From Nymphaea colorata (taxonomy: Eukaryota > Streptophyta > Magnoliopsida > Nymphaeales > Nymphaeaceae), in NCBI RefSeq assembly GCF_008831285.2, contig NC_045140.1, forward strand, positions 3,203,528 to 3,267,527: 64,000 bases of DNA, written 5' to 3'. A program made the translations under genes and the position numbers. Within the stretch, counting starts at the first letter, position 1; each line of letters starts with the position of its first letter. Positions 2,036-55,325 of the stretch are shown here, piece after piece. The notes beneath the pieces were generated by a model. It was not told the origin of the DNA. It made no database searches and saw only the letters and a list, made by a program, of their open reading frames with translations.

Positions 2036-3527
2036 TAGAGAATCGGAATCCACCAGGGGATGGATAAGTGAAAGTTAAATGTAGTGAGCAAATACTAAAT
2101 AGGATTCAGGGAGTCCGTCCAGACATGCGAGATTACACATTCTAAAAGAGCTGGCACCATAAGGAAGGGCAAGGATGGACCAGAATCCTAGAGCAAATCC
2201 CACCAACGATCAAGATGCAAATAGCCTCATCCAGGAGTAAGCTAGTCAGTCGTCTATGGTAGTCCCCTTCATGACTCAGCTGTAAATGAGGCTGATAACA
2301 CAGCCAAAAACAGAAAATATATTAAAGGCACTGAGGCCTGAAAACAAAACACCGTTGAAGAATAAGACAAACTGCATTAAATAACTCGGTAACTGTGCAA
2401 AACACGGTTTATTTACATCAGGGAATACAGGTCCTATTTATACAAGAAATTCATATAGACAGGTATGCATATTATGCTTATGCTTATGCGTGTGTGTGTG
2501 TGTGTGTGTGTCTTGTGGATCCAGTCATATATGCATTATAAAAAAATGAAATAGGTTTTTGTACAGAATGACTGATGAGCAGAAGACTCATTTGCCTACA
2601 GTCTTGAAGAATGGTAATGCAACAAGCCAGAAAAAAGTGTTGCCAATGTGAAAAAGATGATAGAAAAGACATTTAAGAAAGCTATTAAACCATCAAAAGA
2701 ACAAAGTGCATCCTTGATCAAACTGATAAGTGTATGGGCCATTTGTTACATTCTCTTGTAGACAGGTCAGTGATGGACCAAAAATGTTCAATCAGCCAGG
2801 AAAACAGATAGCATTCAGCAAAGTAACGGAAGATGATAATGACATGTAGTGAAGTGGAAAATCCACATAGCTATCATAACATACTTTGAAAAGAAAAAGT
2901 GTGGCACTGGCAGCTTGAAGGAAATCTAAACAGAAAAGGATAAAAGATTATTATGTTTAGTAAACAGATTCATGAGCTCTTCCTCGCCAATGTAAGTTGT
3001 AGACCTCCTGAGTGAGGAGGGAAGGCATCACATTAGCATATTAAATAATTAAACAGCTTCATTCTTCCACGCATACACTAGGAAGAGTAAGGTAGTCACT
3101 CCAAATTATAATGGATGATACCGCAAAGTCAAAATACCCACAATCAAAAGCAAATGCTCAAATATAAGAACGTTGTTGGTTTTCGAAGTCTTGTATAGGA
3201 ATAATCCTTATCAAATGTTTTCGTATCGTTCTCTCTACAGTAAAGGGTGTTTATTTGGCAATGGAAGTGTCACAAACCCCTCCTCAAAATAGAATTATAC
3301 AACTTCCAAGTAAACATAATCAATAGATAGATATAAGCTTTTGCACTGTCAACAATTCATAGATTGCTCCACACATGCAGAATGCTTATTGATATCCATT
3401 AATGTGAAGTGGGTCCGTTAACATGCAATTCTGTACAGTCACGAAATGGATTTCTGAACACCAAGACAGAAAGTTGGGCAATTCATCCCTTTCAGCCTGA
3501 TCTACCATAAATACCTGATTTGCATGT

Positions 3528-4565
3528 TTAGCTTGATTTTGTATAGAAACGTATGGCAACAGCTAGACCCAGAATTGCCAATGGAATAAAGAACTGTAGA
3601 AGCTTGATAATGAATTCAGACTTTTTCTCTTGGTTGATAGAAGACTGCATTGGTTGTGGTGTATATATGGGCTTTGCCGGGATCGTTGATGTATCAATCT
3701 CACCAATCAAGTATCCATCCATCATTGCCCTTGCAGTACTGCTATGACCAACATCCTCAAAATCATCTGTTGCATCCTTACCTACCAACCAAGAAGGGGA
3801 TAGTTAATCTCTAGTATCTTCACAATCATGTAGATGCCAGTGTAAAGAAATTTACCTGTGGCAGACAAGAGAACATCGTCTCCACCTGGATGGTCATCTA
3901 AGAATTGGGTTACATCATATACCTGCTTTTATCATTTCAAAAAAAACATAAAGAGCAAGCTAAAAGGGCAAACAATTTTTGGCCACTCACACCAGTAGAA
4001 TACTGACAGAATCATAAAATTTATAGATAGACAAAGCAAAAAGAGAGATTTTTTGCAAGGGCATGGTACTCATGACCATCTGTATGTTGAAAACTTAAAG
4101 TACCAACAATACAATTCTCAGAAGCCAGTGCCATATTGATGAGACAAAACTCGAAGAACGTACATATCATGAGAAGTACCAACTCTTCAGGAACTCAAAA
4201 GCATAAAAGCAAATTAGCTTTTGATCTCTCATAAACTTCAAGCTTTTAACTGTACAATTTCTAGTAACATTTTTCTCCAACAATAGAAACTACAAAACAA
4301 GAACACGTCAATATCAGCTAAAGGTTCTTATAAGACATCCAGAACCGCCATCTAAATATATATCTGTTCTTTATGACCATAATAAATTGACAATACAACA
4401 CAAGAAACTGAACATATACTCCTATCCTTAGTTATGAGTCTTATGACAGTGTACCAAAATCAACATAGAAATGAAAGCACCTTTAATAGAAACATAACCA
4501 TATTCTATGTTCTCAGTTAGGAGCTACAATTAAACTCCAACAGTTAGAGAGACAAAATCATGTTA

Positions 4566-4605
<40 letters not shown>

Positions 4606-5840
4606 TTCAAAGTTTCTTCCAAACCTATCATGTATTTAAGATAGGAAAAACAAAATCAAGGGCATGGATGGGGATAAAGATCAGGTTAGGGTGTGCATCC
4701 ACAACCTGTCCCAATGTACTTAAATACAGACTTCTTTTGGGCAGTGTGTGACCACGTAATCGCAACAGGACACTAATGTAGTTCCACCACAGGGCTGCAC
4801 CATCCCGGAATAAAGCTCTTATAGCAAGAAGTTAAAGATCAAGATAGAACATTTTCACCCTACATTCAGTTCAGAGAGGTTGAGCAAATTGAAAGGCTAA
4901 AGGAATTTTTGCTCAATCCCATTATCTGTTCGTTGAAGACCATTGCTTTCAGGTATCACCTTAAGTATGTCCCTTTCATGCGCAACCTACAAAATAATCT
5001 TCACTGCTTGATTGCTAAGCTGACGTTGGACAGGCCCCATCCTGACTATGCGAAGAGATGCGCCACCCATGACCTCCATCGTCTTGGAGGTCCCAAGTGG
5101 ACCCACCAAGCCTGTTGACAGAAGCTTTTATTCGGCCAATAATATACTACGTGCAAGCAGCTAAGCTTCAACCCATCCCGTTGGATGCATGAATAGACAG
5201 TGTACTTTAGTTTTTGTATAAAGTTCTTGTTGCTTCATTTTAATAAAGCAGAGCACCAAAAACAGGTGACCTGAAAAGAAAAGAGCTACCAAGTTGAATG
5301 TCTGCAGATAAGATTATGACAGACAAAAGGAAAAGGACTTGACCAGCCAAAGCCTTTACAAAAGCCTAATTCCTCGACACAAGTGAAGATTTAGAACGAT
5401 CTTCCGTCCATTTGCTGAACAGACAAATCATAGTCTGAAGGAATTTATATAACACCATCTGCGTCTTCCTCTAAAATAGCACCATCATGAAGAAACTACA
5501 AAAGCGATACCGATCCAAACATCTTAACAGCTTCAGAAAGACAAAGAAGGGGGAACCAATAAATGAATGAGCTCTTTGACACACAAAAAATGATGGCAAA
5601 GGAAACGAGACAAGAGCAGCACATATCAACTCGTGATCATCATTTTAACTGGGTCATAAATCAACCGGTTAACAATCAAATAGAGGACAAAGCAGGAAGC
5701 ATCGAGAGAGAAAGAGAGTTTATTCGTTTATGTGGGTTGGGGGTCACCTTGCCGTTAATTACAAGCCAGCAATCCTTGGAGTTGTTGTGCTTTGAGACCT
5801 CTTCCAAAGTGAACACCTTTGCATCAGCAGCATCCCCCAT
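3528..5840 (-). CDS. cytochrome b5, tail-anchored (microsomal type)
   Basis: This encodes a heme electron carrier of the ER (or outer mitochondrial) membrane that passes electrons from reductases to fatty-acid desaturases, hydroxylases and some P450s. Minus-strand exons are 5840-5748, 3922-3856 and 3781-3528, all with GT-AG borders, giving 137 residues, usual for the family. The heme ligands are His42 in HPGG and His66 in DVGHS. A C-terminal membrane anchor lies at about 110-130, followed by a short basic tail. I chose the ATG at 5840 (MGDAADAK) because family members start there. The frame stays open to an upstream ATG at 5930, which would add 30 residues. Intron 1 (5747-3923) contains the left border of the 6.6-kb tandem duplication, so a second identical exon 1 lies upstream at 12343-12435. 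No symbol is given because the plant paralogues cannot be told apart by eye. Confidence 0.93.
4569..4601. repeat. (GA)n microsatellite
   Basis: A pure GA tract in cytochrome b5 intron 1, just inside the left border of the duplication. The same tract with the same length is present at 11164-11196 in copy 2. Open frames over it (an RE-repeat peptide) are not coding. Confidence 0.85.
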
Positions 5841-6092
5841 CCGGCTTCTCCTTCTTGCTCCCTCCCCGTTCCTCTGCTTTGTCACGCTTCCAATGGAAAG
5901 TTGCTGGGAGATAGGCTCCGACTCTGTCACGCTTCCTCTATGCGGTCCGCTTCTCTTTCCCTTCTACCTTTTTTATGTTTCCGTTTACCTTTTCTTTCAC
6001 TTGCTCAAGAACCAGAATTTTGGAAACATTGGTGCGTCTGTTCCCCATTATGCAAGTGTCGTTGAATCTCATCCTTTGACGTTCCCTTCACC

Positions 6093-6108
6093 ATATAATA
6101 TATATATG
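6093..6108 (-). promoter_or_regulatory. candidate TATA region of cytochrome b5, proximal copy
   Basis: On the minus strand a TATATATATTATATGG stretch lies about 255 bp before the ATG at 5840. It is the only TATA-like sequence close upstream and would place the start of a pyrimidine-rich leader near 6070. The identical element is at 12688-12703 before the duplicated exon 1. The call rests on sequence alone, and AT-rich DNA gives many false matches. Confidence 0.3.
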
Positions 6109-6596
6109 TATGCTACTGAGTTGACTTCATGTGGATCGCTTCCATGAAAAGGTGAAAATTAGGGAAGAATTAAATGACACTTTCAAAAACTTGGTTTTTC
6201 CAAAACCTCCTTTTGTTAAAACTTGTTTTTTTTTTTTTTTTGAGTTTTTGAAACCTGATTTGCCTGTTTGGACGGCAAAGCAACAACGAGGTCTTCATTT
6301 TTCAAATATCGGTTTGTGTTTGGATGACAAAACATGAATTTTTAATGGTACTTACCAAAAAATAAAATAAAATAAAAAGAACTTCAGCTGAATGCTGCAT
6401 ACAGCTACAACCATCCTCACAAAAAGTGAGTTTTGGATGAAAAATCTAGAGATCCAACTTTTTCAACACCATATAAATGTGTCTTTTTCACTTCATATTT
6501 TTTTACACAGGAGAGCTTCTCATAGTTTTGGATTTTATTTATTGTTCTCTTTTATGGGGATCCAGATCCACTTATATTCTATATAAAGTCAGCTGT

Positions 6597-7017
6597 AGAG
6601 ATGTCATCTTGTCGAAGATACTCTTAACTACATTCATTTTTTCAGATATTCACATATTCATATTCAAACACGAATGAGAAAAATTAATATCAATTTGAAC
6701 CAGAATCTGAAATTCAATTTCACAATCGGAACCTGACTTTTACATTCATATCGAAATTCGAATCCAAATTTTGAACTAAATACATCCGGTTTTTAAACGT
6801 AACAGCATTTGGATATATGATATTTAGTTAAAGCTAAATTCGATCTCAATCTGATCCCGATCATATATTTATGTATATTTAAATAGAAATATGATCAGAT
6901 ATCATTGCTTAAATTCAAAGATTTCTTAATCATATACTAAATTCTTTTCCATGTCAAAATTTTTTTTGAAAAGTTGAATTAGATATCTAATCAGAATCAA
7001 ATAAATTGGCATCCCTG
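6597..7017. mobile_element. MITE-like element, ~400-bp GGATGTCAA family (proximal copy)
   Basis: The ends are TAGAGATGTCA and TTGGCATCCCT, imperfect inverted repeats. The interior carries many GAATCCAAAT / GATCCGAT-like words found in the better preserved members at 47716-48117 and 49543-49949. No clear target-site duplication remains. It lies upstream of cytochrome b5 and was copied by the tandem duplication to about 13193-13614. Confidence 0.5.
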
Positions 7018-7659
7018 GTTATGAGCCGGCCGCACTAAGGGGACTGGTGTGTGGCCAAGGTTAGACATGATTCCTTGAATAATGGGTGACAATTATTGGC
7101 GTCGGTGGGTGATATGAGGTGAAGCACAATCGACAAGTCCATGCCTAACACTGACGTATTTTCTCTTCATGTGGACAGAGTTGTAGTAGCGCGCCACGAA
7201 AGAGATCAAAATTAAGAATGAGGAAATATTGTGGTAGAATAATATATGAGGTTTTAGCTAGGGATGTAAAATTAAATTGGCTTCAAACGGATACATATAT
7301 AACCATATCATGCGAAATCTAAGTTACTTAAACCAATTATAAGCATATATTTTTTTTGGTGTAATTTAGAGGTAAATTCAGGCTCGAACCTTCTTCCTGA
7401 GATCTCAGCGGTGAAATCAATGTGGTGCGGACTGCAGCGGGTTCTTCTTCATTCCCATTTGGGAAGGTGACTGTTCATCAGATGGCCAAATTAATCATGC
7501 CTCTTTAGTCTTTTGTGTTCATGTTCATCAAAATTTTGGGGTTTTGTCATGTTAGAGAAATTTTGATATCTAAGAAATTTAAAAAGTTGCAGAGTTAGAT
7601 GCAACAAAAAGTTTGTCTCACACAGAAATGGTACCTACAAAAATTTTTTATTGGGTTAT

Positions 7660-7960
7660 GGCTGGGCATTGGGCTGGACCCGATTCAAAGTCAGGCTCAG
7701 GCTGGCCGGAAGCCTATGTCTCAGCATGCGGATCGAGCCCGGGACAGGCCTCAATCATCGATTTTAATGAAAAATAATAAAATTATTCATACTTAATATG
7801 TAAATAAGGTATTTATAATGAAAAAATTGCACAAAATTATATTTTAATAATTTTATATTATATATGTTATCGGGCCACACCTTCAATCGGGCTCAAACCA
7901 GCCTGAGTCCTTGTTTTACGGTCTTGTCCGATGCTCAGCCCAACACTCATTTCTATATTG
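7660..7960. repeat. GC-rich-arm / AT-core repeat (copy in duplication unit 1)
   Basis: Two GC-rich arms made of GGGCTGG, GGCTCAGGCTGG and GGGCTCAAACC-like words flank an AT-rich core of about 110 bp. The arms are loosely inverted: the left has GGGCATTGGGCTGG and the right, read in reverse complement, has GTTGGGCTGAGCATCGG. Related elements are at 14257-14557 (the duplicate), 25712-26090 and 46262-46560. This looks like a non-autonomous foldback or MITE family; the superfamily is not determined. Confidence 0.5.
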
Positions 7961-10900
7961 GGTTTTCAAGGTATGATAGTATATATCATACCTTAAGATG
8001 TTAATAAATAAATTTTTTTTTTGGTTGTTTACATGTGGATATATAGTTAAAGAGTATAATCTGCAAATGCTCTTATTTGAGACAATTTGTCCCTGGCCAT
8101 AAAGGCAGAGGGGTCAGTAAGGGCCATGGCTACCCTCAAATTTTCAGAAAAAAAAATGTTTATAATTTTGAAAATTTTTAATGTGACCCTGTAAAAATTC
8201 TGAAAAATATTATACTGATCACTTAGAATTGATAATGCAGATAACATAAGATTCAGATTCACACTATCTTGTCCTATCGACTAGATGTTATTAAATCCAA
8301 TAATTCTTTAACATTAACATCCGACCCAGATCTGGAGAAGATTCGTTGGTGTTAGTTGGATTTGGATTCACATATAATAGTACTGAATCCATCAAAAGAT
8401 GAGCAAAATATTTTCTAATTACAAGCTTTACCCGGTTCAAAATATCTCTGATTTAGACAACACATCCAAAAGAAGAAGAAGAAGAAGAAGAAAAAAAAGA
8501 GCCGTTCTTATGTGGCACATCAATTTTTTAATTTGAGGAGAAGGCTTGAACACGGCGCAGTAGCTCCACCACACGTAGGTTGGTGTTGGCGTTTGCAGCC
8601 CACAGAATTTCTTGATTTTGTACATTGAAGACTTCGGCTATCTGCCGTTTTATAGAGTGAGATACGGCGGAATTGAAATCAACCGGCTATCTTTCTGGTC
8701 GGATGGTTGCTTTGAAGATGATATTTGTAGACATCAAATCAGGGCCATCCATCTTTTTTTATCTGGCTGACCGGATGAGTACGACCGTTGGATGGTAGGG
8801 GCCTCCCCCATCCTCCATACAAACTACGGTGTATATATATATATATATATAAAAGAGAATCTCCGCCCCATCGCAACTACCTAATGCAATATACACAATG
8901 AACATGATTATATACACGGTTCAATACAGTCCATTGAAAAGTATGTTGTGAGAGTCCGAAGGATTGCTCAATTCAATCCAAACTTGCAGAGAAAAATTCA
9001 AAAAAAAAAAAAAAAATCTCATTCATGGGCTTAGTGGGTAATCCCTTGATGTATGTACATATTGATATAAAAGTACCATAAAAATCCAATACACCATAAG
9101 TCATACAATATTGTCAAACCTGTACTTACTTGGAGTGTTATATTCAAAATAATATCTTGCATTTAATATTGGACAGAAGCATATGGTTTTTTCGGAAAGG
9201 GGATTGGCAGTTGAGAGTAAAGAAGCTCGAAATCCGGTCGCTGGGAACCTTGGAAACCGTCCCGCAGTTGGTAGTTGGCCTGACCGTAGTGTCAGTAGTA
9301 CCGCATTCAAACGAATTTATTCAATCGCTTTTGCGACGCTCGCACCGGTCATAGATTTTAATATGTATTCATCTCGCAAGAAGGACAGCAGCAAAAAGAA
9401 GATGAGAAAGATTGGATTCCGCTCGTATTCCAAAAGTTCGTTGCCACACTTTATGCAGCTAAAGAGGGTTCGAAACCAGAGGCATGTGGGTTGTGTGAGA
9501 GAGGAAGAGCACGAATAAATATTGTTGGGTTCTGCAAATTAAAGAGAAGGACGAGCATCCGTTGGTTGGCGGAACGGGGGAACAGGGGCCGTGGCTGCTG
9601 TCAGATCCAACCTGTGGCCACAATCCGCAGACGCTTTCTGTACCTTGCTTGGGCTTTATGATTGACAGTGGCCACGGCCAAGAGCGCCTCTCCGCTGCTG
9701 TTCTTGTGTGTGAATGCTGCCCCGCCGCACTGCAATCCTTTGGAAAAGGAAAAGCAATAAGTGATCACCACATGGGCAGTGTTTGTGTGTCTGTGTGACC
9801 GTCGAATCGGTGCATGAAGCAGCACATTGTATTCTCTTGGTTTCCTAAATGCTTTTACGGTTTGCACATCAAGCTAGTCATTGTTGGCAAACTCATAATT
9901 CAAACTCGGATCGATGGATGGATGATTGGGTGAAAGTTGACTGTCGACTCAATCAAGTTTTAAATTGTGCCAGTTAGGATGAGCCAATGTTCAATTATAA
10001 TAGAGGCTAGCCGAACCAACCTTGACTCATGGCTAGATATCTGAGCTGACTCGGGTGATTCTCGAGCTGACTCGGCGAGTCAGCCAACTATGGCTATAAT
10101 CAATTCAGGAGAGAATTCGCAAATTTGGTGTGAATGGGTCAGGAACACAATAAAAAATAATAAGAAACCATTTTTAAAAAAAAAAATACAAGTAAAAACG
10201 TCAAAGAAATAAAAAGGTTTTCAATATATATATATATATATATATGGAAGAGATAACTAGATAGGATGCTTTATTTGGCACTTGGGTAAACCATCGAGGG
10301 GATTATTCTGCCTTACTTGATATGGTTAGCTGATGCATACACAAGATATTTGTCCTTATGTTTAAATGAATGTCTATCCATTGTATTTGGCGGTTATCCA
10401 AAATATTGATACTCTTTGGGACATTTTCAAGATATCATTATGTTGTCAGTACTCTCGGGTTGTGCATAATGCTTGTTTGCTCTCATGCATATGGCCCCAA
10501 GAGAGCAATTCATGCCTTTGAACTTGCACCTTTTTCGTTTAGAGTCCTGTATATTGCTTTATTCAGATCATGCCAAATGGATGGAAATAGTGTTCTACTA
10601 AACTTAATTTAAATCATTTAAATCTGACCTTTACCTATGATTTCCTATAAATACTAAAGATAGAAGGCTGATATGTTTTAAAAAAGAGCAATTTTATCCA
10701 AAATTTTGGCTCTGAAGGCTCAAATTTTGGGGAGTAATCACTTGACAAGCACAGAACTTGATCTTGTTCCCAAACAACCTCATCTTATTGCATGAGGTTG
10801 CATCAATCTCATTAAACAAACTTTGCAACCTGGACAACAATAAGCAATTTTTTTGCAAAAGTTGAGGCAGAGATATGGATGGTTGGGAGAAGAACATGAA

Positions 10901-11160
10901 AAAAAGGAAAGTAGAAACTAATACTAAATAACAAAAATACTCGTCACCTTTTTTTCTTTGTTTTTCCTTAATTGTCTATCATAATAGACGATTTATTATT
11001 AAATGATAGAATAACTCCTATCCTTAGTTATGAGTCTTATGACAGTGTACCAAAATCAACATAGAAATGAAAGCACCTTTAATAGAAACATAACCATATC
11101 TATGTTCTCAGTTAGGAGCTACAATTAAACTCCAACAGTTAGAGAGACAAAATCATGTTA

Positions 11161-11200
<40 letters not shown>

Positions 11201-12342
11201 TTCAAAGTTTCTTCCAAACCTATCATGTATTTAAGATAGGAAAAACAAAATCAAGGGCATGGATGGGGATAAAGATCAGGTTAGGGTGTGCATCCACAAC
11301 CTGTCCCAATGTACTTAAATACAGACTTCTTTTGGGCAGTGTGTGACCACGTAATCGCAACAGGACACTAATGTAGTTCCACCACAGGGCTGCACCATCC
11401 CGGAATAAAGCTCTTATAGCAAGAAGTTAAAGATCAAGATAGAACATTTTCACCCTACATTCAGTTCAGAGAGGTTGAGCAAATTGAAAGGCTAAAGGAA
11501 TTTTTGCTCAATCCCATTATCTGTTCGTTGAAGACCATTGCTTTCAGGTATCACCTTAAGTATGTCCCTTTCATGCGCAACCTACAAAATAATCTTCACT
11601 GCTTGATTGCTAAGCTGACGTTGGACAGGCCCCATCCTGACTATGCGAAGAGATGCGCCACCCATGACCTCCATCGTCTTGGAGGTCCCAAGTGGACCCA
11701 CCAAGCCTGTTGACAGAAGCTTTTATTCGGCCAATAATATACTACGTGCAAGCAGCTAAGCTTCAACCCATCCCGTTGGATGCATGAATAGACAGTGTAC
11801 TTTAGTTTTTGTATAAAGTTCTTGTTGCTTCATTTTAATAAAGCAGAGCACCAAAAACAGGTGACCTGAAAAGAAAAGAGCTACCAAGTTGAATGTCTGC
11901 AGATAAGATTATGACAGACAAAAGGAAAAGGACTTGACCAGCCAAAGCCTTTACAAAAGCCTAATTCCTCGACACAAGTGAAGATTTAGAACGATCTTCC
12001 GTCCATTTGCTGAACAGACAAATCATAGTCTGAAGGAATTTATATAACACCATCTGCGTCTTCCTCTAAAATAGCACCATCATGAAGAAACTACAAAAGC
12101 GATACCGATCCAAACATCTTAACAGCTTCAGAAAGACAAAGAAGGGGGAACCAATAAATGAATGAGCTCTTTGACACACAAAAAATGATGGCAAAGGAAA
12201 CGAGACAAGAGCAGCACATATCAACTCGTGATCATCATTTTAACTGGGTCATAAATCAACCGGTTAACAATCAAATAGAGGACAAAGCAGGAAGCATCGA
12301 GAGAGAAAGAGAGTTTATTCGTTTATGTGGGTTGGGGGTCAC

Positions 12343-12435
12343 CTTGCCGTTAATTACAAGCCAGCAATCCTTGGAGTTGTTGTGCTTTGAGACCTCTTCC
12401 AAAGTGAACACCTTTGCATCAGCAGCATCCCCCAT
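12343..12435 (-). CDS. duplicated first coding exon of cytochrome b5 (alternative first exon)
   Basis: This encodes the same first 31 residues (MGDAADAK through INGK) as 5840-5748, with the same GT donor after the AAG codon. The coding bases look identical, and so do the leader and the candidate TATA. No exon 2 or 3 follows inside this copy. The next downstream sequence on the minus strand is the whole upstream region and exon 1 of copy 1. That proximal exon 1 has no 3' splice site, so a transcript from here would be expected to splice directly to exon 2 at 3922, with an intron of about 8.4 kb, and encode the same 137-residue protein. Whether it is transcribed is unknown; it could be a dead partial duplicate. 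Confidence 0.6.
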
Positions 12436-12687
12436 CCGGCTTCTCCTTCTTGCTCCCTCCCCGTTCCTCTGCTTTGTCACGCTTCCAATGGAAAGTTGCT
12501 GGGAGATAGGCTCCGACTCTGTCACGCTTCCTCTATGCGGTCCGCTTCTCTTTCCCTTCTACCTTTTTTATGTTTCCGTTTACCTTTTCTTTCACTTGCT
12601 CAAGAACCAGAATTTTGGAAACATTGGTGCGTCTGTTCCCCATTATGCAAGTGTCGTTGAATCTCATCCTTTGACGTTCCCTTCACC

Positions 12688-12703
12688 ATATAATATATAT
12701 ATG
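12688..12703 (-). promoter_or_regulatory. candidate TATA region of cytochrome b5, distal copy
   Basis: Identical to the TATA-like stretch at 6093-6108 and at the same distance from the duplicated exon 1. Both the core and several kilobases upstream are duplicated, so a working promoter could have been copied whole. Confidence 0.28.
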
Positions 12704-13192
12704 TATGCTACTGAGTTGACTTCATGTGGATCGCTTCCATGAAAAGGTGAAAATTAGGGAAGAATTAAATGACACTTTCAAAAACTTGGTTTTTCCAAAA
12801 CCTCCTTTTGTTAAAACTTGTTTTTTTTTTTTTTTTTGAGTTTTTGAAACCTGATTTGCCTGTTTGGACGGCAAAGCAACAACGAGGTCTTCATTTTTCA
12901 AATATCGGTTTGTGTTTGGATGACAAAACATGAATTTTTAATGGTACTTACCAAAAAATAAAATAAAATAAAAAGAACTTCAGCTGAATGCTGCATACAG
13001 CTACAACCATCCTCACAAAAAGTGAGTTTTGGATGAAAAATCTAGAGATCCAACTTTTTCAACACCATATAAATGTGTCTTTTTCACTTCATATTTTTTT
13101 ACACAGGAGAGCTTCTCATAGTTTTGGATTTTATTTATTGTTCTCTTTTATGGGGATCCAGATCCACTTATATTCTATATAAAGTCAGCTGT

Positions 13193-13614
13193 AGAGATGT
13201 CATCTTGTCGAAGATACTCTTAACTACATTCATTTTTTCAGATATTCACATATTCATATTCAAACACGAATGAGAAAAATTAATATCAATTTGAACCAGA
13301 ATCTGAAATTCAATTTCACAATCGGAACCTGACTTTTACATTCATATCGAAATTCGAATCCAAATTTTGAACTAAATACATCCGGTTTTTAAACGTAACA
13401 GCATTTGGATATATGATATTTAGTTAAAGCTAAATTCGATCTCAATCTGATCCCGATCATATATTTATGTATATTTAAATAGAAATATGATCAGATATCA
13501 TTGCTTAAATTCAAAGATTTCTTAATCATATACTAAATTCTTTTCCATGTCAAAATTTTTTTTGAAAAGTTGAATTAGATATCTAATCAGAATCAAATAA
13601 ATTGGCATCCCTGG
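13193..13614. mobile_element. MITE-like element, ~400-bp GGATGTCAA family (duplicate copy)
   Basis: Copy of the element at 6597-7017, carried along in the tandem duplication and not an independent insertion, because both flanks are duplicated too. Confidence 0.5.
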
Positions 13615-14256
13615 TTATGAGCCGGCCGCACTAAGGGGACTGGTGTGTGGCCAAGGTTAGACATGATTCCTTGAATAATGGGTGACAATTATTGGCGTCG
13701 GTGGGTGATATGAGGTGAAGCACAATCGACAAGTCCATGCCTAACACTGACGTATTTTCTCTTCATGTGGACAGAGTTGTAGTAGCGCGCCACGAAAGAG
13801 ATCAAAATTAAGAATGAGGAAATATTGTGGTAGAATAATATATGAGGTTTTAGCTAGGGATGTAAAATTAAATTGGCTTCAAACGGATACATATATAACC
13901 ATATCATGCGAAATCTAAGTTACTTAAACCAATTATAAGCATATATTTTTTTTTGGTGTAATTTAGAGGTAAATTCAGGCTCGAACCTTCTTCCTGAGAT
14001 CTCAGCGGTGAAATCAATGTGGTGCGGACTGCAGCGGGTTCTTCTTCATTCCCATTTGGGAAGGTGACTGTTCATCAGATGGCCAAATTAATCATGCCTC
14101 TTTAGTCTTTTGTGTTCATGTTCATCAAAATTTTGGGGTTTTGTCATGTTAGAGAAATTTTGATATCTAAGAAATTTAAAAAGTTGCAGAGTTAGATGCA
14201 ACAAAAAGTTTGTCTCACACAGAAATGGTACCTACAAAAATTTTTTATTGGGTTAT

Positions 14257-14557
14257 GGCTGGGCATTGGGCTGGACCCGATTCAAAGTCAGGCTCAGGCT
14301 GGCCGGAAGCCTATGTCTCAGCATGCGGATCGAGCCCGGGACAGGCCTCAATCATCGATTTTAATGAAAAATAATAAAATTATTCATACTTAATATGTAA
14401 ATAAGGTATTTATAATGAAAAAATTGCACAAAATTATATTTTAATAAATTTTATATTATATATGTTATCGGGCCACACCTTCAATCGGGCTCAAACCAGC
14501 CTGAGTCCTTGTTTTACGGTCTTGTCCGATGCTCAGCCCAACACTCATTTCTATATT
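14257..14557. repeat. GC-rich-arm / AT-core repeat (copy in duplication unit 2)
   Basis: Duplicate of 7660-7960, differing by a single extra A in the AT core near 14445. Confidence 0.5.
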
Positions 14558-16817
14558 GGGTTTTCAAGGTATGATAGTATATATCATACCTTAAGATGTT
14601 AATAAATAAATTTTTTTTTTGGTTGTTTACATGTGGATATATAGTTAAAGAGTATAATCTGCAAATGCTCTTATTTGAGACAATTTGTCCCTGGCCATAA
14701 AGGCAGAGGGGTCAGTAAGGGCCATGGCTACCCTCAAATTTTCAGAAAAAAAAAATGTTTATAATTTTGAAAATTTTTAATGTGACCCTGTAAAAATTCT
14801 GAAAAATATTATACTGATCACTTAGAATTGATAATGCAGATAACATAAGATTCAGATTCACACTATCTTGTCCTATCGACTAGATGTTATTAAATCCAAT
14901 AATTCTTTAACATTAACATCCGACCCAGATCTGGAGAAGATTCGTTGGTGTTAGTTGGATTTGGATTCACATATAATAGTACTGAATCCATCAAAAGATG
15001 AGCAAAATATTTTCTAATTACAAGCTTTACCCGGTTCAAAATATCTCTGATTTAGACAACACATCCAAAAGAAGAAGAAGAAGAAGAAGAAAAAAAAGAG
15101 CCGTTCTTATGTGGCACATCAATTTTTTAATTTGAGGAGAAGGCTTGAACACGGCGCAGTAGCTCCACCACACGTAGGTTGGTGTTGGCGTTTGCAGCCC
15201 ACAGAATTTCTTGATTTTGTACATTGAAGACTTCGGCTATCTGCCGTTTTATAGAGTGAGATACGGCGGAATTGAAATCAACCGGCTATCTTTCTGGTCG
15301 GATGGTTGCTTTGAAGATGATATTTGTAGACATCAAATCAGGGCCATCCATCTTTTTTTATCTGGCTGACCGGATGAGTACGACCGTTGGATGGTAGGGG
15401 CCTCCCCCATCCTCCATACAAACTACGGTGTATATATATATATATATATAAAAGAGAATCTCCGCCCCATCGCAACTACCTAATGCAATATACACAATGA
15501 ACATGATTATATACACGGTTCAATACAGTCCATTGAAAAGTATGTTGTGAGAGTCCGAAGGATTGCTCAATTCAATCCAAACTTGCAGAGAAAAATTCAA
15601 AAAAAAAAAAAAAAATCTCATTCATGGGCTTAGTGGGTAATCCCTTGATGTATGTACATATTGATATAAAAGTACCATAAAAATCCAATACACCATAAGT
15701 CATACAATATTGTCAAACCTGTACTTACTTGGAGTGTTATATTCAAAATAATATCTTGCATTTAATATTGGACAGAAGCATATGGTTTTTTCGGAAAGGG
15801 GATTGGCAGTTGAGAGTAAAGAAGCTCGAAATCCGGTCGCTGGGAACCTTGGAAACCGTCCCGCAGTTGGTAGTTGGCCTGACCGTAGTGTCAGTAGTAC
15901 CGCATTCAAACGAATTTATTCAATCGCTTTTGCGACGCTCGCACCGGTCATAGATTTTAATATGTATTCATCTCGCAAGAAGGACAGCAGCAAAAAGAAG
16001 ATGAGAAAGATTGGATTCCGCTCGTATTCCAAAAGTTCGTTGCCACACTTTATGCAGCTAAAGAGGGTTCGAAACCAGAGGCATGTGGGTTGTGTGAGAG
16101 AGGAAGAGCACGAATAAATATTGTTGGGTTCTGCAAATTAAAGAGAAGGACGAGCATCCGTTGGTTGGCGGAACGGGGGAACAGGGGCCGTGGCTGCTGT
16201 CAGATCCAACCTGTGGCCACAATCCGCAGACGCTTTCTGTACCTTGCTTGGGCTTTATGATTGACAGTGGCCACGGCCAAGAGCGCCTCTCCGCTGCTGT
16301 TCTTGTGTGTGAATGCTGCCCCGCCGCACTGCAATCCTTTGGAAAAGGAAAAGCAATAAGTGATCACCACATGGGCAGTGTTTGTGTGTCTGTGTGACCG
16401 TCGAATCGGTGCATGAAGCAGCACATTGTATTCTCTTGGTTTCCTAAATGCTTTTACGGTTTGCACATCAAGCTAGTCATTGTTGGCAAACTCATAATTC
16501 AAACTCGGATCGATGGATGATTGGGTGAAAGTTGACTGTCGACTCAATCAAGTTTTAAATTGTGCCACAGTTAGGATGAGCCAATGTTCAATTATAGAGG
16601 CTAGCCAAACCAACCTTGACTCATGGCTAGATATCTGAGCTGACTCGGGCGATTCTCGAGCTGACTCGGCGAGTCAGCCAACTATAGGTATAATCAATTC
16701 ATGGGAGAATTGCACCAAATTTGGTGGAATGGGTCAGGAGCACAATAAAAAAAACAATAAGAAACCATTTTTTAAAACAAAAATACAATAAAAACATCAA
16801 GGAGATAAAAAGGTTTT

Positions 16818-16820
<3 letters not shown>

Positions 16821-16853
<33 letters not shown>
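16821..16853. repeat. (TA)n microsatellite, expanded in copy 2
   Basis: About 16 TA units, against about 8 at the matching place in copy 1 (10228-10244). It lies in the diverged 1.1-kb end of the duplication. Confidence 0.8.
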
Positions 16854-16856
<3 letters not shown>

Positions 16857-17562
16857 GAATCGATAACCTGATAGGATGCTTTGTTTGGCACTTGGTAAGC
16901 CAGGGGATGAGTCTGCCTTACTTGATATGGTTAGCTGATGTATACACAAGATATTTGTCCTTATGTTTAAATGAATGTCTATCCATTGTATTTGGCGGTT
17001 ACCCAAAATATTGGTACTCTTTGAGACATTTTCAAGATATCATTATGTTGTCAGTACTCTCGGGTTGTGCATAATGCTTGTTTGCTAGAGAGCCATTCAT
17101 GCCTTTTGAACTTGCACCTTTTTCATTTAGAGTTGTGTATATTGCATTATTCAGATCATGCCATATGGATGGAATCGTGTTCTACTTAACTTAATTTAAA
17201 TCATTAAAATCTAACCTTTACCTATGGTTTCCTATAAATACTAAAGATAGAAGGCTGATATGTTTTAAAAAAGAGCAATTTTTGGAGAGTAATCACTTGA
17301 CAGGCACAAAACTTGATCATGTTCCCAAGCAACCTCATCTTATTGCATGAGGTTGCATCAATCTCATTAAACAAACTTTGCAACCTGGACAACAATAAGC
17401 AATTTTTTTGCAAAAGTTGAGGCAGAGATATGGATGGTTGGGAGAAGAACATGAAAAAAAAAAGTGGAAATTAATACTAAATAACAAAAATACTCATCAC
17501 GTTTTTCTCTTAATTGTCTATCATAATACATCAGACGAATTATTATTAAATGATAGAATGAC

Positions 17563-17564
<2 letters not shown>

Positions 17565-18744: not shown

Positions 18745-20477
18745 TCAGCAGCTCCTTCCCCTCCTGCAACTAAGAGCTCCGGCGGAATAAGTGATGGTGC
18801 CCACAATGGACGAAGGTCTGGCGCTCAGGCTATAAGCCTTTGCGTAGCTCGATCCGCTGCCGGCACCGGACGGAGTGAAGAAGGCGCCATTAAGCATCAA
18901 GTCCCCCTGAGATCTCCAATTCCAATGGATCCATTTGCTCCGTGATGTATCTTCACGTTTTGTTACCTATTCCATTCCATCCCTCAGATTCAGCACCATA
19001 TTTTCTCAGATAGACAGAAGCACAGATATTTCAGCGATCAAGAGGTATTTCCGCTTGAGTTTTTTCTTGGAAAGGAGTTGCATTGGGATAAAAGAACAAA
19101 GTTAAACAAGAAGAAACCCCATTAAAAAACAGCGGTGCTACCAAAAAGTGAATCTCACCTCTTTGTTATATGCAGTATTAGGGGCGAGAAATCTGTTCCC
19201 TTGGCTGTTGATGGTAGGAGCGGCACTCCCACCAATGGCATACATCTCCCAGTGACTGTAGTCATTGTTCACTACATGGAAATACCCATGCCTGCATCTG
19301 AAGAGTGAAGTAATTTGGTCATGATATTGCTTCGATAATCCAAACAGGAACGAAGAAATTAAACCAAGAACACACCTTGGCATCCTCTGCACCAGGCCCT
19401 CCCCAAAGTGATTGAAGGCAATGGTGACTTGCATGTCCCTGTCCTTGGTATAAGAATCACTGTGGCCCAAGAGCATGACTTTATCATGATGTGTGAAGTA
19501 GTTGTTGGAGATGGTAATGGCTGTGGAACCCTGGATGGCATCAACTAGGCCATCGGCGCAATTAGAGAAGGAACAATGGTCCACCCATATGTGGCTGCCC
19601 CCAAAGATGGAGACACCATCACCATCAGACCTCGTCCTGTAGCCATAGTGCTGTGGGGAGTCCCTGACATAGGCGTTCCCTGCCGGCTTGCAGTCGTGGA
19701 TGTGGACTCCATGAATGATGATGTTGGTGACGAACTGGATGGTGATGCAGGGTCCATTGGAGATGTGAACGTTGGCGCCACGGCCATCGATGGTCTTGTA
19801 AGAGTTCACCATCAGCTCCTGCTTGAGCCGGATGCCCATGTCGCTGGCAAAGATGATCCACAGAGGCTCGTCTTGGATGACGCCATACCGGAGGGTGCCG
19901 GGCTTGGGGTTGACGGCGTCGTCTCCGCCGTCGGTGACGACGTAAATCCGGCCGTTCTTTCCACCGATGGCGTTCTTGCCGAAACCGTAGGCGCAGTCCG
20001 CCAGCCGCTGGCGGTTGGACTCCCAGTGGGGGTCGCACCGCCAGCAGTCGTCGATGGGATTGCCGGTTTTGCAGGAAAGGAAGCCCAGCTCCCTCCTCGA
20101 AACATTAATGCTCCTGGTGAGAAACATAGAAACCGGCGTCACGATGGGAACAGAAAATGTCTTGACCGTTTTAAGATTTTTCCCTTTCTGGAAATATCCC
20201 GAAAAGATAAAAACTGGGATATATTAATGAAAGCGAAAAAAGAAGTCCTTATTAAAGCCTTACTTTATCAAGGACAAGAGATTCTGTGTCTTTGGCGAAC
20301 AATGATATAAAATTACAGTCAACTTGCGAAAGAAAATACGATCAATGCTACTAATTATGTACCAGTGGAAACAAAGTGAATCCATGTTATCCTCAAGGAC
20401 TAAGTGAATATTACATGGAAAAAACTCCAAATACAGGATTGGTAGAGGCAAAGATGGCTTGAATCTTGAGTATTATA

Positions 20478-48456: not shown

Positions 48457-52497
<4,041 letters not shown>

Positions 52498-54590: not shown

Positions 54591-54840
54591 TAGCAAACAA
54601 AAACCAAACTTTACCTTGCATTGCTAAGGGACAAGGCTAGGAACTTGATGAAATGTAAAGTTTGAACTAGAACCAAAATGATTGAGAGTCACACAGAAAA
54701 CACACATTCAGTTTGATATTTCCATGAGTGTTACTCTTCTAGACTGCAGATGGTAGCATGCATGACACTCGAGTTAAGGGGTGTACCGCCTTGAACCCTG
54801 CAGGCAAGGGAAAAAGGGGTTGGCTTCACCTTTCATGGAC

Positions 54841-55325
54841 TACCAAAGAAGAAAGCTAGTCATGTTTGGTGTGTTTGCATGGATGGAAGAAAGATGCTGA
54901 AGAGACGGGCCACCAAAGAGGAAAGCTACTCATATTTGGTGTGTTTGCTTGGATGGAAGAAAGATGCTCAAGAGACGGGCCACCAAAGAGGAAAGCTAGT
55001 CATGTTTGGTGTGTTTGCATGGATGAGAGAAAGATGATGAAGAGACAGACCACCAAAGAGGAAAGCTAGTCATGTTTGGTGTGTTTGCTTGGATGAAAGA
55101 AAGACGCTGAAGGGACGGGCCACCAAAGAGGAAAGCTAGTCATGTTTGGTGTGTTTGAATGGATGGAAGAAAGATGCTGAAGAGACGGACCACCAAAGAG
55201 GAAAGCTAGTCATGTTTGGTGTGTTTGCATAGATGGAAGAAAGATGCTGAAGAGACGGACCACCAAAGAGGAAAGCTAGTCATGTTTGGTGTGTTTGCTT
55301 GGATGGAAGAAAGATGGCGAAGAGG
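54841..55325. repeat. 70-bp minisatellite, seven copies
   Basis: Units start at 54841, 54911, 54981, 55051, 55121, 55191 and 55261, exactly 70 bp apart, each beginning YACCAAAGARGAAAGCTAST. Units differ at a few positions. Because 70 is not a multiple of three, each copy shifts the frame by one base, and the open frame at 54866-55069 reads the unit in all three frames; it is not taken as a gene. There are no spacers, so this is not a CRISPR array. Confidence 0.95.

Follow-up and report, generated by a model that had tools for sequence, protein, structure and literature searches.

A gene that has its promoter and first exon twice and the rest of its coding body once raises two questions: whether the arrangement exists in the plant at all, and, if it does, whether both starts would lead to one protein. 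We addressed these questions for a cytochrome b5 gene on C3 of Nymphaea colorata, using a window (the whole stretch of DNA analyzed) of 64,000 bases, C3:3203528-3267527, and the 407.8-Mb assembly (783 sequences) as the genome searched. Positions are those of the window unless a chromosome is named. A literature search for a tandem cytochrome b5 in Nymphaea colorata found nothing related, and one paper from a wider search touches on incomplete duplication in general terms only.

At 12435-12343 and again at 5840-5748 the exon 1 coding sequence is the same in every letter (MGDAADAKVFTLEEVSKHNNSKDCWLVINGK), and the start codon, frame, and donor are intact in both copies. Joined to exons 2 and 3, the far exon 1 gives an open frame of 137 residues to the stop, the product of which matches the Pfam domain Cyt-b5 (PF00173) at 7.4e-32 over residues 11-82. 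The translation contains an HPGG motif and a C-terminal hydrophobic tail (FIIKLLQFFIPLAILGLAVAIRFYTKSS), which we take to be marks of a microsomal-type plant cytochrome b5. Intron 1 measures 1,825 bp when counted from the near exon 1 and 8,420 bp when counted from the far one. An earlier note on this DNA had named the gene, placed its exons, and described the geometry of an 8.4-kb skip, and the splice check, open frame, and Pfam match show that it was right on all three; its statement that the far exon 1 has the same coding bases and the same GT donor is likewise exact. The window holds no Rfam match at gathering score, and thus no known RNA gene was found in it.

BLAST of the window against itself detected one large direct tandem duplication (4414-10695 against 11011-17282, 98.46% over 6,307 columns), with a second match at lower identity (10721-11017 against 17276-17564, 90.3%). 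The exact edges of the duplication place its breakpoints at 4418, 11014, and 17561 (Table 1), and a repeat of this kind is far beyond chance. The promoter and exon 1 are present twice and exon 2 onward once, all on one strand, as in the PEP1 type of layout discussed below. That exon 1 occurs twice and exons 2 and 3 once had been claimed before, and the self-comparison, the identical exon 1 copies, and the 3′ flank, which is found full-length only here, agree with it, as does the edge at 4418, which falls within intron 1, where the duplication had been said to end. The accompanying claim that all upstream DNA was copied stands in that upstream DNA is included, but has to be cut back in extent, to about 5.1 kb (12436-17560).

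Table 1. Features of the cytochrome b5 gene and of the tandem duplication, in window coordinates.
Feature	Coordinates	Strand	Size	Remarks
Near (proximal) exon 1, coding part	5748-5840	minus	31 codons	Donor AAG/GTGACC
Far (distal) exon 1, coding part	12343-12435	minus		Identical to near exon 1; donor AAG/GTGACC
Exon 2	3856-3922	minus		Acceptor AAAAGCAG before 3922; donor CAG/GTAAAT after 3856
Exon 3, coding part with stop	3528-3781	minus		Single copy at the locus; from translation and splice check
TATA-like AT run	6092-6108	minus		Upstream of near exon 1; far-copy equivalent near 12687-12703; run read directly, putative promoter element
Candidate in-frame cassette	5748-5903	minus	156 nt	Stop-free, if AG 5905-5904 acts as acceptor; speculative
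Duplication copy A	4418-11013		6,596 bp	5′ part of intron 1 (4418-5747), exon 1, and about 5.2 kb upstream of the near ATG
Duplication copy B	11014-17560		6,547 bp	Content as copy A, around far exon 1; abuts copy A directly
ACTC junction microhomology	11014-11017			Also at 4418-4421 and 17561-17564
Segment U, copy A	4418-9912			Against copy B at about 11014-16511: 0 substitutions, five 1-bp indels
Segment V1, copy A	9913-11013			Against V2: 59 of 1,024 sites differ, 16 gaps
Segment V2, copy B	16512-17560

The surroundings of the array contain several other features. A pectate lyase gene (19138-20142, minus strand; Pfam 9.1e-19) is the upstream neighbor of copy B. An older tandem duplication at C3:3196706-3205081 consists of four segments, shifted by 4.5-5.1 kb and matching at 88-95%; it extends into the window at 1-1554 and ends on the downstream side of the cytochrome b5 gene, about 2 kb from the stop codon. 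Minisatellite arrays lie at 54837-55324 (70-bp shift) and at 48485-48712 (33/66-bp shifts), the latter inside a repeat reading frame that encodes a 14-letter protein repeat and that has no Pfam match.

The breakpoints and the distribution of differences between the copies bear on how the array arose. The 4-bp ACTC is common to all three breakpoints, and a (TA)n tract starts just past 17564, at the right breakpoint; the overlap lends mild support to a microhomology-type join, as by our own arithmetic about 2% of joins would have it by chance. The copies fall into two parts of very different similarity. Segment U has 5,494 matches and not one substitution, and each of its five indels lengthens or shortens a run of one base (runs of at least 8 in three cases and of 1-3 in the other two). 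Segment V has 965 matches, 59 substitutions, and 16 gaps, with indels of many sizes, a mixture that makes V1 and V2 look like diverged DNA. A uniform recent duplication was rejected, as the substitutions lie only in the final 1.1 kb, which by chance would have a log10 P of about −47. For substitutions in U the upper 95% bound is 5.5e-4 per site. Plants substitute at about 6.5e-9 per site and year, and at that rate the bound for U would be some 40,000 years, and the age of V would come to some millions of years. The first-exon part of a real duplication may be read as very recent or as recently homogenized. The mosaic fits an older duplication that was partly homogenized by unequal crossing-over or conversion, a duplication between two haplotypes, or haplotypes that the assembler placed in series.

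The last of these is the main rival to a real duplication: two haplotypes of a single locus, with the same U but different V segments, would have been written one after the other, and each chromosome would carry one exon 1. The shift from 0 substitutions in 5,494 sites to 59 in 1,024 is abrupt, a pattern that a boundary between homozygous and heterozygous haplotype sequence would also give, and indels confined to 1-bp run-length changes, as in U, resemble long-read consensus errors. The assembly of Nymphaea colorata, described as built from PacBio RSII reads with Canu 1.3, Arrow, Pilon, and Lachesis, is likely an unphased long-read assembly. In older animal assemblies, false duplications were reported to take up 3.7-15.9% of the assembly, with 7-24% of those on the same scaffold, and their main marks, as given there, include gaps between the copies and half read depth (Ko et al. 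2022, PMC9516828). The array resembles the false heterotype duplications described in that work in that the copies are adjacent and part of them differs as two alleles would, but differs from them in that no gap separates the copies. Its junction lies in gap-free sequence, because neither the window nor the adjoining 200 kb on one side contains an N (264 kb examined). A direct gap-free join would normally need a read across it, and the libraries of about 20 kb can give reads longer than the 13-kb array, although a yield of 49.8 Gb from 5.5 million reads puts the mean at about 9 kb. The ACTC microhomology at the breakpoints also argues against an artefact, as does the rest of the neighborhood, in which one other repeat pair of at least 500 bp at more than 85% occurs in the 264 kb, an older tandem duplication. 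Finally, we found no leftover haplotig: exon 1 at 100% occurs at two places in the assembly, both at this locus (four matches altogether), so that there is no third identical copy, and among the best 40 of 258 candidates scored V is full-length at its two places here and at no third. We consider the serial-haplotype explanation unlikely, and the duplication probably real in the plant. Were the artefact nevertheless the answer, the locus would be a clean example of an unphased assembly imitating a partial duplication.

The wider genome contains relatives and fragments of the gene. The flank at 3300-4413, which includes exons 2 and 3, has ten genome matches, one full-length (itself) and nine partial; a second full gene at the locus was rejected because that flank is full-length once only. 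The nine partial matches are two paralogues (C2:7.82 Mb and C10), four fragments on C5 and at C2:13.98 Mb, one intron piece on C6, and two short matches. All three exons have counterparts in the C2 paralogue, which carries exon 1 once (L004 and L020, with an 811-base overlap at 100%). Exon 2 with its intron flanks (about 3786-4063) recurs at 92-95% in L018 (C5:16252097-16255374) and L019 (C2:13982116-13985402), which have common sequence around the exon 2 piece (95.9% over 2,749 columns); in L018 a frame for a hAT transposase (Pfam 1.3e-29) is found about 0.5 kb away from the piece, and the two pieces look like the product of gene-fragment capture by a hAT element. On C13 (L003, C13:6264762-6267844), a fragment of exon 1 and the 5′ part of intron 1 (92% over 152 bases) is joined directly to a piece resembling intron 1 at about 4308-4350 (86% over 43 bases). 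Two stretches of V1, about 10001-10093 and 10869-11006, are interspersed repeats, with 38 matches elsewhere at 74-89% among the best 40 of 258.

If the duplication is real, one protein from two promoters, as the earlier note proposed, is plausible by the precedent of PEP1, and distal transcripts could possibly leave out the near exon 1, since that exon is a first exon. The two starts would be hard to tell apart. No difference between the copies occurs between 4504 and 6224, a stretch that takes in exon 1 and extends 384 bp beyond the ATG on the upstream side, and over a promoter stretch of about 4.1 kb there are no substitutions and four 1-bp indels, the closest of which falls within a poly-T run at 6225. 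Because not one base of the leader or of exon 1 is specific to a copy, the spliced mRNAs of the two starts should be indistinguishable, and separating the copies by leader-reaching RACE or cDNA reads, which had been suggested before, fails if the starts fall in 4504-6224. Nascent minus-strand RNA over V1 (9913-11013) would be informative, because V1 lies within the distal intron and upstream of the proximal promoter and differs in sequence from V2; such RNA would be expected from distal transcription and not from the proximal promoter.

An effect on dosage or expression may be nil or even negative, because exon 2 lies much nearer to the proximal donor, which has the same sequence as the distal one, and because unspliced distal RNA runs into a stop. 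On general grounds, an 8.4-kb intron with an identical donor nearer to the acceptor would be a poor splicing substrate. The distal exon 1 of a real duplication could then be a dead or harmful passenger, its RNA being hardly spliced to exon 2 and either ending in the intron or interfering with the proximal promoter. The competition between a near donor 1.8 kb from exon 2 and a far donor at 8.4 kb points in this direction, and so do the frame of unspliced distal RNA, which stops after 54 codons, and ten AATAAA motifs on the RNA strand within the long intron, although counts of AATAAA in AT-rich introns weigh little alone and in PEP1 exon 1a, 6.3 kb from exon 1b, is reported to be spliced to the common exon 2 (PMC3527215). 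We regard a dead distal exon as rather unlikely, and our odds for it overlap with those for the use of both promoters, as the duplication is real in both.

Distal transcripts might instead retain the near exon 1 as an internal cassette by way of the AG at 5905-5904 (CCTATCTCCCAG/CAAC), giving a protein with a repeated N-terminus. The earlier note's statement that the near exon 1 has no 3′ splice site may or may not hold. Several AGs upstream of the near exon 1 score like true acceptors on a crude, home-made score, and this one, at 6.1 compared with 4.0 for the acceptor of exon 2 and 8.6 for that of exon 3, is the only one of the eight listed that yields an in-frame cassette free of stops. Its score is not special, however, as 23% of 1,024 nearby AGs reach at least 6.4 and it ranks below four other AGs that precede the near exon 1, and the repeat would land inside the haem domain. 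A cassette of this kind is highly improbable.

The explanation that we favor, with moderate confidence, is a real partial tandem duplication that was recently re-homogenized and in which both promoters are used with shared exons 2 and 3. It also draws support from the substitutions and variously sized indels between V1 and V2, and from the C2 paralogue, which has the three-exon layout with a single exon 1. Microhomology-type joining at the 4-bp ACTC, beside the (TA)n tract, would have duplicated exon 1 of the cytochrome b5 gene together with the adjoining 5′ part of intron 1 and about 5.1 kb of upstream DNA. A single set of exons 2 and 3 would then serve two first exons and their two promoters, which differ by no substitution. 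A second, recent rearrangement of the array, through unequal crossing-over or gene conversion, is probable, because the 1.1-kb far end has diverged and the 5.5-kb end with exon 1 and the promoter has not. The two promoters would be expected to fire in the same cells because they are free of substitutions over about 4.1 kb. Proximal transcripts would have the 1.8-kb intron spliced out, while part of the distal transcripts would skip the near exon 1 through the 8.4-kb splice to exon 2 and encode the same protein; the remaining distal RNA would be non-productive and may interfere with the proximal promoter. We would expect a split between the two transcripts like that of PEP1, probably with the proximal starts dominating. 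Of these elements, the geometry, the mosaic, and the shared ACTC are shown by the sequence, whereas the presence of the array in the plant, its homogenization, the use of the promoters, and the splicing are inferred.

If the arrangement is real and used, it would add a further plant case in which, as in PEP1, a promoter and first exon were doubled without creating a new gene. The effects of promoter number and intron length would then be separable from those of promoter sequence, because the two promoters differ by no substitution. We propose more tentatively that, in a real cytochrome b5 gene with two promoters, recent homogenization has kept the promoter and first exon free of substitutions as the outer end diverged, and that the arrangement amounts to a natural doubling of promoter input to a single coding body.

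The layout is already known from another plant gene, and the mosaic of the copies is what is new here. PEP1 of Arabis alpina is described as two overlapping genes that arose by partial tandem duplication, with both first exons spliced to one exon 2, and in accession Dor the distal share of PEP1 mRNA is given as 26% for apices before vernalization and as 3% for leaves (PMC3527215). By that description, PEP1 is an example of how a layout of this kind can give rise to a transcript from each of its two starts. The likeness is close in what is reported of PEP1: exon 1 and parts of the promoter and intron 1 are tandemly duplicated and the downstream exons single, the exon 1 copies lie 6.3 kb apart compared with 6.6 kb in the cytochrome b5 gene, and identical proteins are predicted (accession Paj). 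The two cases differ in that PEP1 has proof from cDNA and 5′ RACE, whereas the cytochrome b5 case is read from genomic sequence, and in that the longest duplicated segment reported for PEP1 is about 2 kb with diverged upstream sequences, whereas the cytochrome b5 promoters have 0 substitutions over about 4.1 kb. UGT1A and the clustered protocadherins also have tandem variable first exons with their own promoters and downstream exons in common; their first exons encode different parts of the protein, whereas those of the cytochrome b5 gene are identical.
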